Assembly: GCA_015655445.1 (NCBI GenBank)
Contig: JAATFA010000040.1
Location: 1 to 33,993 of the forward strand
Reading direction: 5' to 3'
Length of the DNA: 33,993 nucleotides
Source of the DNA: Actinomycetales bacterium
GTDB lineage: Bacteria > Actinomycetota > Actinomycetes > Actinomycetales > Microbacteriaceae
In this document: one piece after another, positions 11,577 through 32,214 of the stretch
How positions within the stretch are numbered: position 1 is the first letter of the stretch
Layout of the letters: every line of letters begins with the position of its first letter
Position numbers and translations under genes: made by a program
Notes under the pieces: generated by a model
Databases searched by the model: none
The model's input: only the letters and a program-made list of their open reading frames with translations
What the model was told of the DNA's origin: nothing

Positions 11577-12104
11577 GTGCGCATCGAGCTGGTCCGGGGC
11601 GACATCACGCGGCAGTCCGTCGACGCGATCGTGAACGCGGCGAACTCCTCCCTCCTCGGCGGCGGGGGTGTCGACGGCGCGATCCACCGGGCGGGCGGCC
11701 CGGAGATCCTCGAGGAGTGCCGGCGCATCCGGCGCGAACGCTACCCCGACGGACTGCCGCCGGGACAGGCCGTCGCGACGACCGCGGGACGGCTTTCCGC
11801 ACGCTGGGTCATCCACACCGTCGGCCCGGTCTACTCCCGACGCGAGGACCGCAGCGCCGTGCTCGCGAGCGCGTACCGCGAGTCCGCGCGCCTCGCCGCG
11901 CGCCTGGGCGCACGGTCGATCGCCTTCCCCGCGATCTCGGCGGGCGTCTACGGCTGGCCCATGGACGACGCCGCGCGCATCGCGATCGGCACCATCCGCT
12001 AGCTCACCGAGGACGAGACGCCGGGGCTCGAGGTCGCGCGGTTCGTGCTCTTCTCGGACGACGCGCTGCACGCGTTCGAGCGCGCGGCCGCGGCGCCCGC
12101 GTAG
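11577..12104 (+). pseudogene. Macrodomain ADP-ribose hydrolase (YmdB-like), interrupted by in-frame TAG
   Basis: Macrodomains of this type remove ADP-ribose or deacetylate O-acetyl-ADP-ribose. The N-terminal strand RIELVRGDITRQSVDAIVNAAN, the ligand loop GGGGVDGAIH and the second loop AISAGVYGWP are all intact. TAG at 12000-12002 (codon 142) stops translation after GTIR. The same frame then continues with a normal family C-terminus, including VARFVLFSD and AFERA, to TAG at 12102-12104. The total of 175 codons matches a full-length family member. The truncated product would lack the last strand and helix, so it is probably unstable. GAG to TAG is the simplest change. GTG 11577 with a TATCGT box six bases upstream sets the start. 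A sequencing error or readthrough remain possible. Confidence 0.82.
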
Positions 12105-12120
12105 CGCCCGAGCTGGAAGG

Positions 12121-12696
12121 CTAGAGACGCGGCAGCGTGATCGTGCCGCTCATGGGCGGCAGCTCGCGCAAGCGCTCGAGCGCGGGCCGCAGCTAGGCGA
12201 GCCACGCCTGATAGCCCGCCTCGTTGAGGTGCAGACGATCGGGGCTGTACTCGGGGTCGATCTCGCCGTCCTCGCGGGCGAGCGCCGGCCACAGGTCGAG
12301 GTACTGCCCGCGCACCGTCGCGACGAACTGCCACAGGTGGCGGTTGGCGTCGCGCACGCCGTCGGCGATCTCCCGCCCGCGCGGCGGGATCGACACGAGC
12401 AGGAGCCGCGAGCTCGGCAGAGCCTTGCGCAGCTCCACCATGATCGTCTCGACGCCGCGCACGACGCGCTCGACCGAGCGGCGCGCGCCGAAGTCGTTCG
12501 TGCCGATGAGCAGCACGACCTCGTCGGGGTCCGCGGCGACGACGTCGTCGAGCCGCGCGAGCAGGTCGTCGGTCGTCTCCCCCGGCGCGCCGAACTCGAG
12601 GACCTCGTCGTCGGGGAACCACTCCGCCCAGCGCCCGCCCGCGATGAGATCGTCACCGACGAGGGCGAGGCGATGTCGTGGGGTCTCGTGCGTCAT
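12121..12696 (-). pseudogene. SGNH/GDSL-type hydrolase, interrupted by in-frame TAG
   Basis: SGNH hydrolases are esterases or lipases with conserved Ser, Gly, Asn and His blocks. Seen here are block I as GDDLIAGG near residue 14, the Gly region GAPGETT, block III GTNDFG, and block V DRLHLNEAGYQAW. TAG at 12193-12195 is codon 168 and follows QAWLA. The frame then continues with LRPALERLRELPPM to TAG at 12121-12123, as full-length relatives do. The block I serine is replaced by aspartate, so even the complete protein might lack ordinary esterase activity. ATG 12696 has GAGGAG eight bases upstream. The gene converges on the interrupted macrodomain gene with 16 bases between the two restored ends. 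Confidence 0.8.
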
Positions 12697-27095: not shown

Positions 27096-28106
27096 GTGCG
27101 GATCGCGGTTCTCGGCGCCGGCGCGATCGGTGGGGCCATTGCTGCGCTCCTCGATCGCGGCGGTCACGACGTCCGCGTGACCGCGCGCGGCGAACAGCTC
27201 GACGCGATCCGCGCGCGCGGACTGCGGCTCGAGGGTGCCTGGGGCGAGCACCTCGCGCGTCCCGCCGCGGCGGAGCGCATCTCCTCCCCCATCGAGCTCG
27301 CGGTGCTCGCGACGAAGGCTCACGACGCCGAGGACGCCCTGAGCGCGAACGCCGCTCTCCTGCGCGGCATCCCCGTCGTCGTCGTGCAGAACGGACTCGC
27401 GGGCGTCGAGACGGCGCGCAGCCTGCTCCCCCGCTCGGATGTCGTGGGCGGGATCGCGGTGTTCGCGGCGTCGCTGCGTGAGCCCGGCGTCGTCGTCGTC
27501 ACGGCGGCCGGCACGCTCTTCCTCGCGCGCGGCGACGCGCGCCACGACGTGCCCGCGCGCTACGCAGCGAGTGTGCTCGGGACCGTGCTGCCGGTCGAGC
27601 TCGTCAGCGACTTCCGCGGCGCGCAGTGGTCCAAGCTCGTGCTCAACCAGGTCAACGCGCTGCCCGCGATCACGGGCCTGAGCGTGCAGGAGACCGTCGC
27701 GGACGCGGGACTGCGGCGCCTGCTCGTCCTCTCGATGCGCGAGAGCGTGCGCGTCGCGCGCGCCCTCGGCGTGCGCTTCGCCCCCCTGCAGGGGCTCGGC
27801 GACGGCATCCTGCGCGTGTTCACGGCGGCGCCGCTGCCGCTCGCGGAGCTCCTGCCGCGGGCGATGGCGCGCCGCATGGGCGACGTGCCGAACCCCGGGT
27901 CGACCCTGCAGAGCATCCGCCGCGGCCGGACGACGGAGATCGACGCGCTCCACGGCGCGGTCGTCGACGCCGCCAGCCGCGCGGGCGGGGAGGCGCCCGT
28001 CAACGCGTTCCTCGTCGAGCTCGTGCACGAGGTCGAGCGCACGCGATCGTTCCTCGCGCCGCGCGAAGTCCTCGAGCGCGCGCGGGCGGCGGACCTGCTG
28101 CCGTGA
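27096..28106 (+). CDS. panE: 2-dehydropantoate 2-reductase family protein
   Basis: Ketopantoate reductase makes pantoate with NADPH for coenzyme A synthesis. The 336-residue protein has the Rossmann motif GAGAIGG (7-13), ATKAHD, VVQNGLAG, catalytic K180 with N184 in WSKLVLNQVNALPAI, and the C-terminal GSTLQSIRRGRTTEID (S269, E281). The family is broad, and several members act on other 2-keto acids, so the symbol is provisional. GTG 27096 is chosen over GTG 27093 because it gives the usual six-base distance to the TAGGAT box. Its TGA overlaps the mutY start as GTGA. Confidence 0.85.
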   Translation: MRIAVLGAGAIGGAIAALLDRGGHDVRVTARGEQLDAIRARGLRLEGAWGEHLARPAAAERISSPIELAVLATKAHDAEDALSANAALLRGIPVVVVQNGLAGVETARSLLPRSDVVGGIAVFAASLREPGVVVVTAAGTLFLARGDARHDVPARYAASVLGTVLPVELVSDFRGAQWSKLVLNQVNALPAITGLSVQETVADAGLRRLLVLSMRESVRVARALGVRFAPLQGLGDGILRVFTAAPLPLAELLPRAMARRMGDVPNPGSTLQSIRRGRTTEIDALHGAVVDAASRAGGEAPVNAFLVELVHEVERTRSFLAPREVLERARAADLLP

Positions 28107-29005
28107 GCGCGCTCGCCGCCCGGAACGCGCCGGGCCCGCACGCCGAGCTCGTGCGCGCGCTCGCCGCGTGGTTTCGCGACCACCGCCGCCCGCTGCCCTG
28201 GCGCGAGCCCGGATTTCCCGCGTGGGGCGTGCTCGTGAGCGAGATCATGCTGCAGCAGACCCCCGTCGCGCGCGTCGTGCCCCGCCTCGCCGCGTGGCTC
28301 GAGCGGTGGCCGACGCCCGCCGACCTCGCGGCCGTTCCGCCGGGCGAGGCCGTGCGCGCGTGGGACAGGCTCGGCTACCCGCGGCGCGCGCTGCGCCTGC
28401 ACGAGGCCGCCGTCGTGATCGCCGAGCGCCACGCGAACGTCGTGCCGGCCGAGCTCGACGACCTCCTCGCGCTGCCCGGGGTCGGGGAGTACACGGCGCG
28501 CGCCGTCGCGGTCTTCGCATACGGACGGCGTCATCCCGTCGTGGACGTCAACGTGCGGCGCGTCCTCGCGCGCGCCGTCGAGGGTCGCGCGCAGCCCGCC
28601 GCCGCGTCGACGCGACGCGACCTCGAGCTGCTCGAGTCGCTCCTGCCGCACGACCCGGCCGAGGCCGCGATCGTCGACGCGGCCGCGATGGAGCTCGGCG
28701 CGCTCGTGTGCGTCGCGCGTCGTCCGCGCTGTGCGGAGTGCCCCATCGCGACGGAGTGCGCGTGGCGCCGCGCGGGATGTCCCGCGCACGACGGGCCGCC
28801 GCCGCGCACGCAGCGGCCGTACGCCGGGTCCGACCGCGAGGTGCGCGGGCGCCTCCTCGCGCTCGTGCGCTCGAGCGAGGTGCCCGTGGCGGCCGCGGAC
28901 CTCGAGCACGCGTGGCCCGACGCCGTGCAGCGCGAGCGGGCGCTCGCGGGCCTCGTCGCGGACGGGCTCGTCGTCGCCGAGGACGACGCCTACGCGCTGC
29001 CCTGA
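28103..29005 (+). CDS. mutY: A/G-specific adenine DNA glycosylase
   Basis: MutY removes adenine mispaired with 8-oxoguanine and so prevents G:C to T:A mutations. The 300-residue protein has catalytic E47 (VSEIMLQQT), a helix-hairpin-helix LPGVGEYTARAV, and catalytic D148 in VVDVNVRR. The [4Fe-4S] ligands are C203, C210, C213 and C219 with the exact 6-2-5 spacing. It lacks a full NUDIX-like C-terminal domain, as in many short actinobacterial MutYs; instead about 60 residues form a winged-helix-like tail. The start GTG 28103 overlaps the panE stop. Its end overlaps the convergent tetR gene by 16 bases. Confidence 0.93.
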   Translation: MSALAARNAPGPHAELVRALAAWFRDHRRPLPWREPGFPAWGVLVSEIMLQQTPVARVVPRLAAWLERWPTPADLAAVPPGEAVRAWDRLGYPRRALRLHEAAVVIAERHANVVPAELDDLLALPGVGEYTARAVAVFAYGRRHPVVDVNVRRVLARAVEGRAQPAAASTRRDLELLESLLPHDPAEAAIVDAAAMELGALVCVARRPRCAECPIATECAWRRAGCPAHDGPPPRTQRPYAGSDREVRGRLLALVRSSEVPVAAADLEHAWPDAVQRERALAGLVADGLVVAEDDAYALP

Positions 29006-31285: not shown

Positions 31286-31306
31286 GGACTCGCGGGACAG
31301 GTGCGC

Positions 31307-31318
31307 CTCCGGCCGGAG
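31307..31318. promoter_or_regulatory. 12-bp perfect palindrome upstream of the Fpg/Nei gene
   Basis: CTCCGGCCGGAG lies in the 50-base gap between the MFS gene and the glycosylase gene. It could be an operator or a minimal hairpin; there is no independent support for either. Confidence 0.3.
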
Positions 31319-31335
31319 TGGACGAGACTGGAGGC

Positions 31336-32214
31336 GTGCCCGAGCTCCCCGAGGTTCAGGCGCTCGTCGCCGACCTCGACGCGCGCCTCGCCGGCCGCGT
31401 CGTCGACCGGCTCGACGTCGTCTCGTTCGCCGCGCTCAAGACCTTCGACCCTCCCGTCACGGCGCTCGCCGGCGGGACCGTCGACGGCGTCGCACGGCAC
31501 GGCAAGTTCCTCGACATCCGGATCGGGGACCTGCACCTCGTGCTGCACCTCGCCCGCGCCGGGTGGATCCGCTGGCGGGACCGCGCGCCCGGCGGCACGG
31601 GGCGACCGGGCAAGGGGCCGCTCGCCGCGCGCCTCGTGCTGCGCGGCGGCGAGGGGGTCGAGCCGGGAGCCGGCCTCGACGTGACGGAGGCGGGCACGAA
31701 GAAGAGCCTCGCGATCCACCTCGTGCGCGATCCCGCCGAGGTCCCCGGGATCGCGCGCCTCGGGCCCGACCCGCTCGACCCAGCCTTCACCGAGGACGCT
31801 CTCGCCGGCATCCTCGCGCGTGCCGGTCGCGCGCAGATCAAGGGCGTGCTGCGCGACCAGAGCCTCATCGCGGGCGTGGGCAACGCGTACTCGGACGAGA
31901 TCCTGCACGCCGCGCGCATGTCGCCGTTCAAGCCCGCGGCCATGCGGCCCGAGGAGGTCGAGCGCCTCTACCGCGCCCTGCGGACGACGCTCGCCGACGC
32001 CCTCGCGCGCGCCGACGGCCTCGCCGCCTCCGAGCTCAAGGCCGAGAAGAGGTCCGGCCTGCGCGTGCACGGGCGCACGGGCGAGCCGTGCCCCGAGTGC
32101 GGCGACACGATCCGCCAGGTCATCTTCGCCGACTCCACGCTCCAGTACTGCCCGACGTGCCAGACGGGCGGCAGGCCGCTCTCCGACCGCGTGCTGTCGC
32201 GACTGCTCAAGTAG
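31336..32214 (+). CDS. Fpg/Nei family DNA glycosylase
   Basis: This family excises oxidised bases by beta,delta-elimination. The 292-residue protein starts with the processed PELPEVQ sequence (catalytic P2 and E3) and has the loop lysine K57 in HGKFLD. The helix-two-turn-helix region contains KGVLRDQSLIAGVGNAYSDEI. The zinc finger is C252, C255, C272 and C275. GPDPLDP and the short DNA-contact region differ from classical Fpg, so an actinobacterial Nei-like subgroup is possible and I give no symbol. GTG 31336 is fixed by the PELPE motif. The gene converges with rbfA. Confidence 0.9.
   Translation: MPELPEVQALVADLDARLAGRVVDRLDVVSFAALKTFDPPVTALAGGTVDGVARHGKFLDIRIGDLHLVLHLARAGWIRWRDRAPGGTGRPGKGPLAARLVLRGGEGVEPGAGLDVTEAGTKKSLAIHLVRDPAEVPGIARLGPDPLDPAFTEDALAGILARAGRAQIKGVLRDQSLIAGVGNAYSDEILHAARMSPFKPAAMRPEEVERLYRALRTTLADALARADGLAASELKAEKRSGLRVHGRTGEPCPECGDTIRQVIFADSTLQYCPTCQTGGRPLSDRVLSRLLK

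Follow-up and report, generated by a model that had tools for sequence, protein, structure and literature searches.

The window analysed here is a stretch of 33,993 nucleotides from a Microbacteriaceae genome (contig JAATFA010000040.1). Within it, a macrodomain gene and an SGNH/GDSL hydrolase gene lie as convergent neighbours, and each of them can be read through one in-frame TAG to a second. The macrodomain gene, which is of the O-acetyl-ADP-ribose deacetylase type, occupies positions 11577-12104 of the forward strand from a GTG start to its second TAG, and its internal TAG stands at 12000-12002, as codon 142 of 176. Between this codon and the final TAG (12102-12104) lies a C-terminal extension of 33 codons (12003-12101), which contains the family-like segment RFVLFSDDALHAFE and brings the protein to a total length that fits most homologues. 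Whether truncated or read through, the protein scores above the cut-offs of Pfam PF01661 and of NCBIfam NF001664; for the latter (cut-off 200) the score is 252.5 bits without the extension and 271.1 bits with it. The extension continues the family alignment and carries in its own frame a coding signature of +19.0 bits over the 33 codons, the best of the other five frames reaching +3.3. The alignment holds 29 of the 31 matches outside the source genome (G000), two rows without the locus having been left out, and none of the 29 homologues has a stop or ends at the site of the internal TAG. The residue at this site is variable (Ala in 10, Glu in 6, Thr in 4, Asp in 3, Gly in 3, Ser in 2 and Gln in 1), and the near-invariant columns of the alignment show no private deviation (0 of 35).

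The SGNH/GDSL hydrolase gene is located on the reverse strand (12696-12121), with its ATG at 12696 and matches to Pfam PF13472 and PF00657. Its internal TAG (12195-12193) is codon 168 of 192, and is followed by an extension of 23 codons (12192-12124), LRPALERLRELPPMSGTITLPRL, and by the final TAG (12123-12121), the second of the frame. This extension likewise continues the family alignment, with a coding signature in its own frame of +4.7 bits over the 23 codons against +2.5 for the best of the other five frames. Fifteen of the 28 matches outside G000 were aligned, the 13 weak rows (at most 35 bits) being left out, and in none of the 15 is there a stop or a protein end at the TAG site. Here the residue is Glu in 12 homologues (GAG in 8, GAA in 4), Val in two and Arg in one, and the near-invariant columns again lack private deviations (0 of 24). 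Two of the 15 homologues (L052 and L060) terminate within about ten residues past the site, and therefore the SGNH tail may be dispensable. One of the excluded weak rows (G018, 29% identity) carries a TAG inside.

Both internal TAGs lie on the coding strand in the hexamer CTAGCT (11999-12004 and 12191-12196), at a distance of about 193 bases from each other. The initial annotation had placed the two TAGs at these codons and described the C-termini beyond them as family-like, and the alignments and the own-frame coding signatures agree with it; the alignment to homologues, which it had proposed as a check, gives no protein that ends at either site. It had also held that both codons are one G-to-T change away from GAG. 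The alignment supports this for the SGNH gene, where Glu prevails; for the macrodomain gene, given the variability of the site, it is no more than plausible.

A macrodomain match is present in 28 of the 59 genomes searched and an SGNH match in 21 of the 59, G000 being included in both counts. The convergent arrangement recurs in G009, a genome of the same family (L012 and L047), with the match ends about 0.2 kb apart. The two matches lie 1.6 kb apart in G028 and about 9 kb apart in G001. A scan of genome contigs returned two loci, one in a Microbacteriaceae metagenome-assembled genome and one in a gammaproteobacterial one.

Internal stops across the genome

The assembly that holds the window comprises 2,959,495 bases in 185 contigs and is 85.93% complete. 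Eighty stretches of it, together with the window, were scanned (908,327 bases) for stops that have a coding signature in the same frame on both sides. Twelve internal stops were obtained, consisting of nine TAG, two TGA and one TAA, and they are distributed over ten contigs, including that of the window. The list depends in part on judgement by eye, as 26 places were selected, 11 kept, and 15 dropped because they were unclear or reflected the next gene lying in that frame; the SGNH stop narrowly missed the cut of the final scan, but had been selected in an earlier scan, and was hence added to give twelve.

Outside the window, internal TAGs interrupt genes for a GMC oxidoreductase (L076, position 15452), methylisocitrate lyase PrpB (L078, 3180), YifB/ComM (L095, 5825), a BMP-type lipoprotein (L099, 940), a glycosyltransferase and GtrA (both in L113, at 9074 and 13071), and GlgE (L137, 458). 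Internal TGAs are found in the polyphosphate kinase gene ppk (L109, 2567) and in pheT (L112, 11945), and the internal TAA in an alpha/beta hydrolase gene (L096, 5014). In all ten of these genes an alignment to a family, a structure or a relative crosses the stop. The Pfam match of GlgE does not reach as far as the stop, and continuity is given there by 29 relatives; for the alpha/beta hydrolase only a weak Pfam match extends across the stop (E 1.8e-6); and the stop in pheT falls inside the Pfam match to the CLM domain. The gene pheT is essential, and only one match to it is present in the assembly. A long frame of L074 is closed by a TAG (3734), and the 23 codons after it have a strong coding signature; this TAG could be a further internal stop and is not counted here.

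The same scan in two relatives selected three places in G001 (400,000 bases) and two in G022 (225,380 bases). Four of these were judged to be adjacent genes and the fifth (L194 of G022, with a tail of 12 codons) was not classed as clearly internal, leaving no clearly internal stop in either sample, of which that of G022 is a small control with its 119 coding ends (G001 has 303 and G000 has 690). By a hand estimate, the probability that all twelve stops fall in G000 is (908/1534)^12 = 0.002; measured by coding ends (690 against 303 + 119), it is 0.003. The relatives' rows listed for GlgE, PheT, Ppk and the BMP-type lipoprotein contain no stop inside. A homology scan with the relatives' proteins gave clear G000 stops in ComM, Ppk and GtrA, all already on the list. 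Four additional places that it returned, two of them in G001 and one each in L075 and G022, resemble shadow frames and were discarded. No frameshift occurs in about 25,700 aligned residues. The twelve stops correspond to a rate of 12 in 21,689 recoverable sites, or about 5.5e-4 per site, which extrapolates to about 1,200 changes of this kind genome-wide. The stretches also contain 4,620 N letters in 695,579 bases, some of which may be other than gaps.

Against this background the pair in the window loses much of its singularity. The initial annotation considered two such events at this distance unlikely by chance, which holds for the locus viewed alone, but not once twelve stops in 908 kb are taken into account. 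When 12 class-specific stop sites are placed at random in the sample, 3.2% of 20,000 draws contain a pair no more than 195 bases apart. The two stops are thus mildly unusual in their closeness, which does not require a mechanism of its own, although a locally reduced read depth would account for it. The hexamer CTAGCT surrounds three of the nine internal TAGs, the third being that of the GMC oxidoreductase gene, as compared with 9% expected at TAG-making sites (P 0.04).

Replaced residues and the class of change

A replaced residue is suggested at eight of the twelve sites: Glu at four (SGNH, GlgE, PrpB and the BMP-type lipoprotein), Ser at two (GtrA and ComM) and Gly at two (PheT and Ppk). 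Among relatives, Glu stands at the GlgE site in all 29, Ser at the GtrA site in 26 of 28, and Gly at the PheT site in 19 of 29. For GtrA, L257 was left out, having three stops in its match, and six further rows that were used hold stops in the match as well, seemingly in a stretch ahead of the gene that the query included. In the five PDB alignments shown for PrpB, the site is Glu four times, two of these in one and the same enzyme, and Leu once, while all five alignments shown for the BMP-type lipoprotein have Glu, four of them being one protein. At the ComM/YifB site a single same-genus genome has Ser and one more distant PDB alignment has Gly; at the Ppk site a single same-genus genome has Gly and a more distant PDB chain has Asn. 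The macrodomain, GMC oxidoreductase, alpha/beta hydrolase and glycosyltransferase sites, the last with Gly in one relative, stand outside the eight.

All eight sites with a suggested residue are one G:C-to-T:A transversion away from a codon of that residue, the fit at the two Gly sites assuming the codon GGA, where relatives mostly use GGC. In a simulation on G000, this class accounts for 53% of the stop sites that are recoverable when all rates are equal, so that eight out of eight has a probability of 0.006 at equal rates per site, and of 0.001 if G:C-to-A:T changes are twice as frequent. The simulation further predicts for the recovered sites of the class 71% TAG, 19% TAA and 10% TGA, which fits the nine TAG, one TAA and two TGA observed. 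The excess of TAG thus follows from G:C-to-T:A changes at GAG and TCG in a genome of 72% GC, and no altered decoding of UAG is needed.

At conserved positions other than stops, comparison with a same-genus relative gave no excess of G:C-to-T:A changes (40 against 90 in the reverse direction, over 6,146 codons), a comparison of low power in which an excess of only about 5 is expected by hand estimate. The corresponding comparison of G022 with G001 covers 660 codons and is too small to use. Near-invariant columns tell little about the class, since their counts are too few to judge it: GlgE has three deviations of 88 (the stop itself, a Leu to Phe common to the same-genus genome, and a Thr to Ser that is more than one base away from the commonest codons), PheT has one of 117 (a Leu to Ile that falls into the G:C-to-T:A class), and GtrA has none of 10.

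Origin of the stops

We consider it probable that the two TAGs are instances of genome-wide G:C-to-T:A consensus errors in a fragmented draft Microbacteriaceae genome, which appears to be a metagenome assembly. Errors of the oxidation type in reads or library would become fixed in the assembly consensus as single-base G:C-to-T:A changes. The stops would then not be features of the living locus and the changes would be absent from the organism, in which the macrodomain and SGNH genes are probably intact and of full length. Consensus errors are expected to be scattered without relation to gene function and to strike indispensable genes too; the twelve stops lie on ten contigs in unrelated families, and one of them is a UGA in the single-match pheT. 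Because the same one-letter breaks are scattered over the genome, an essential gene included, sequence error is likelier than special decoding. It is also the best of the three options first offered, the other two being joint relaxation of a dispensable locus and UAG readthrough, with the amendment that the error is genome-wide and not, as first put, local.

Oxidation-type (G-to-T or C-to-A) artefacts in a draft consensus share with G000 the scattered transversions of one class, the hit in an essential gene and the lack of frameshifts. However, such artefacts are usually rare among reads and outvoted, and their fixation here would take low depth or an assembler error. Oxidative G-to-T damage is described as a source of sequencing artefacts (PMC12390751), and local errors in metagenome-assembled genomes are described as leading to incorrect protein-coding sequences (PMC7111523). 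The portions of the literature consulted on oxidation artefacts in metagenomes yielded nothing pertinent.

The main rival, though an unlikely one, is a real nonsense load. According to it, the stops are true mutations in the sampled population, in which a lineage or a minority strain with a G:C-to-T:A bias would carry a nonsense load in mostly dispensable genes. Mutators defective in 8-oxoguanine defence, through loss of MutY or MutM, produce G:C-to-T:A changes, the same class as in G000, into which all eight inferable sites fit. Most of the broken genes are, in our judgement, probably dispensable, and two SGNH homologues manage without the tail. However, such a lineage should be inviable with a broken pheT and no second copy in the assembly; frameshifts are lacking, and conserved sense positions show no surplus of the class, in a test of little power. 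The window also contains open MutY-like and Fpg-like frames, whereas mutators of this kind have lost these enzymes. Both frames score below curated cut-offs, and the MutY-like match spans only positions 3-211 of 277; a repair defect may thus still be present. The two frames (27626-29002 and 31300-32211) are predicted 8-oxoguanine repair enzymes within about 4 kb. No literature on mutY mutators with nonsense alleles in actinobacteria was found.

Readthrough of UAG is remote. Under this explanation, UAG followed by C would be read through often enough for the nonsense to be tolerated, the extended proteins being made at a reduced level. The initial annotation pointed to the C that follows both stops as a weak termination context, and this observation extends beyond the locus, as eight of the nine internal TAGs have C at the +4 position, where 35% would be expected (P 0.0013). 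The extensions resemble the family and have kept their coding signature. A C at +4 is documented as a weak termination context, especially for UGA (PMC5289835). Nevertheless, TAG ends without a coding extension favour C as well (37 of 72), and the internal UGAs and UAA (pheT, ppk and alpha/beta hydrolase) are followed by A, T and G, with C in none of the three. Release factor RF1 is encoded (prfA in L090, 469.5 bits, cut-off 423.25), and ARAGORN detects no tRNA with a CUA anticodon among the nine tRNAs of the 80 stretches and the window (about 31% of the genome), and no tRNA at all in the window. The aligned homologues carry sense codons at these positions, so no readthrough signal is conserved. 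The bias towards C at +4 is not predicted by random error, oxidation-type artefacts included, and is unexplained. The frame that precedes prfA in L090 looks like rho.

A bolder combination of the two preceding explanations can be formulated, in which a Microbacteriaceae lineage carries dozens of true nonsense alleles, most of them UAG-C, and survives as suppression of UAG-C and of some UGA supplies even PheT. We regard it as highly improbable.

The proposal of a relaxation confined to the macrodomain-SGNH locus, with both genes turning into pseudogenes together, draws on the nearness of the two stops in neighbouring genes and on the many genomes that lack a match to one or the other. The genome scan speaks against this restriction, since comparable stops are present on nine further contigs of the sample, including the one in pheT, and both genes have kept their near-invariant columns and coding signature; the idea is left with hardly any credibility. 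Genome-wide reassignment of UAG to an amino acid, the least credible of all, would account for in-frame UAGs inside conserved genes and for the over-representation of TAG at ends that a coding-like extension follows (14 of 86, as compared with 12 of 354 for TGA, with only seven of the 14 TAG judged internal). It is rejected on the mixed residues at the sites, on RF1 and on the common terminator role of TAG, which forms 137 of the 690 coding ends sampled over 908 kb, internal ones included, and the excess is covered by the 71% TAG expected from the G:C-to-T:A class. Since UAG occupies both Glu and Ser positions of homologues, it has no single sense meaning in G000; the initial annotation had argued against reassignment from its use as a terminator, and the encoded RF1 and the at least two different residues at internal UAGs strengthen that argument.

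Consensus error is thus most likely, with the class of change, the scatter, the broken pheT, the lack of frameshifts and the fragmented assembly counted in its favour. The absence of a class excess at sense sites (a weak test), the C bias at +4, the short distance between the two stops (P 0.03), and the Gly of ComM and Asn of Ppk in PDB alignments weigh against it. The in-frame TAG pair is most likely not a real biological feature, and what seemed a striking local coincidence becomes a measurable property of one draft genome, at about 5.5e-4 per recoverable site. Since GAG and TCG turn into TAG by changes of the G-to-T type, in-frame stops in GC-rich drafts can mimic UAG recoding. If the stops were real, they would represent a natural case of a heavy nonsense load with suppression.
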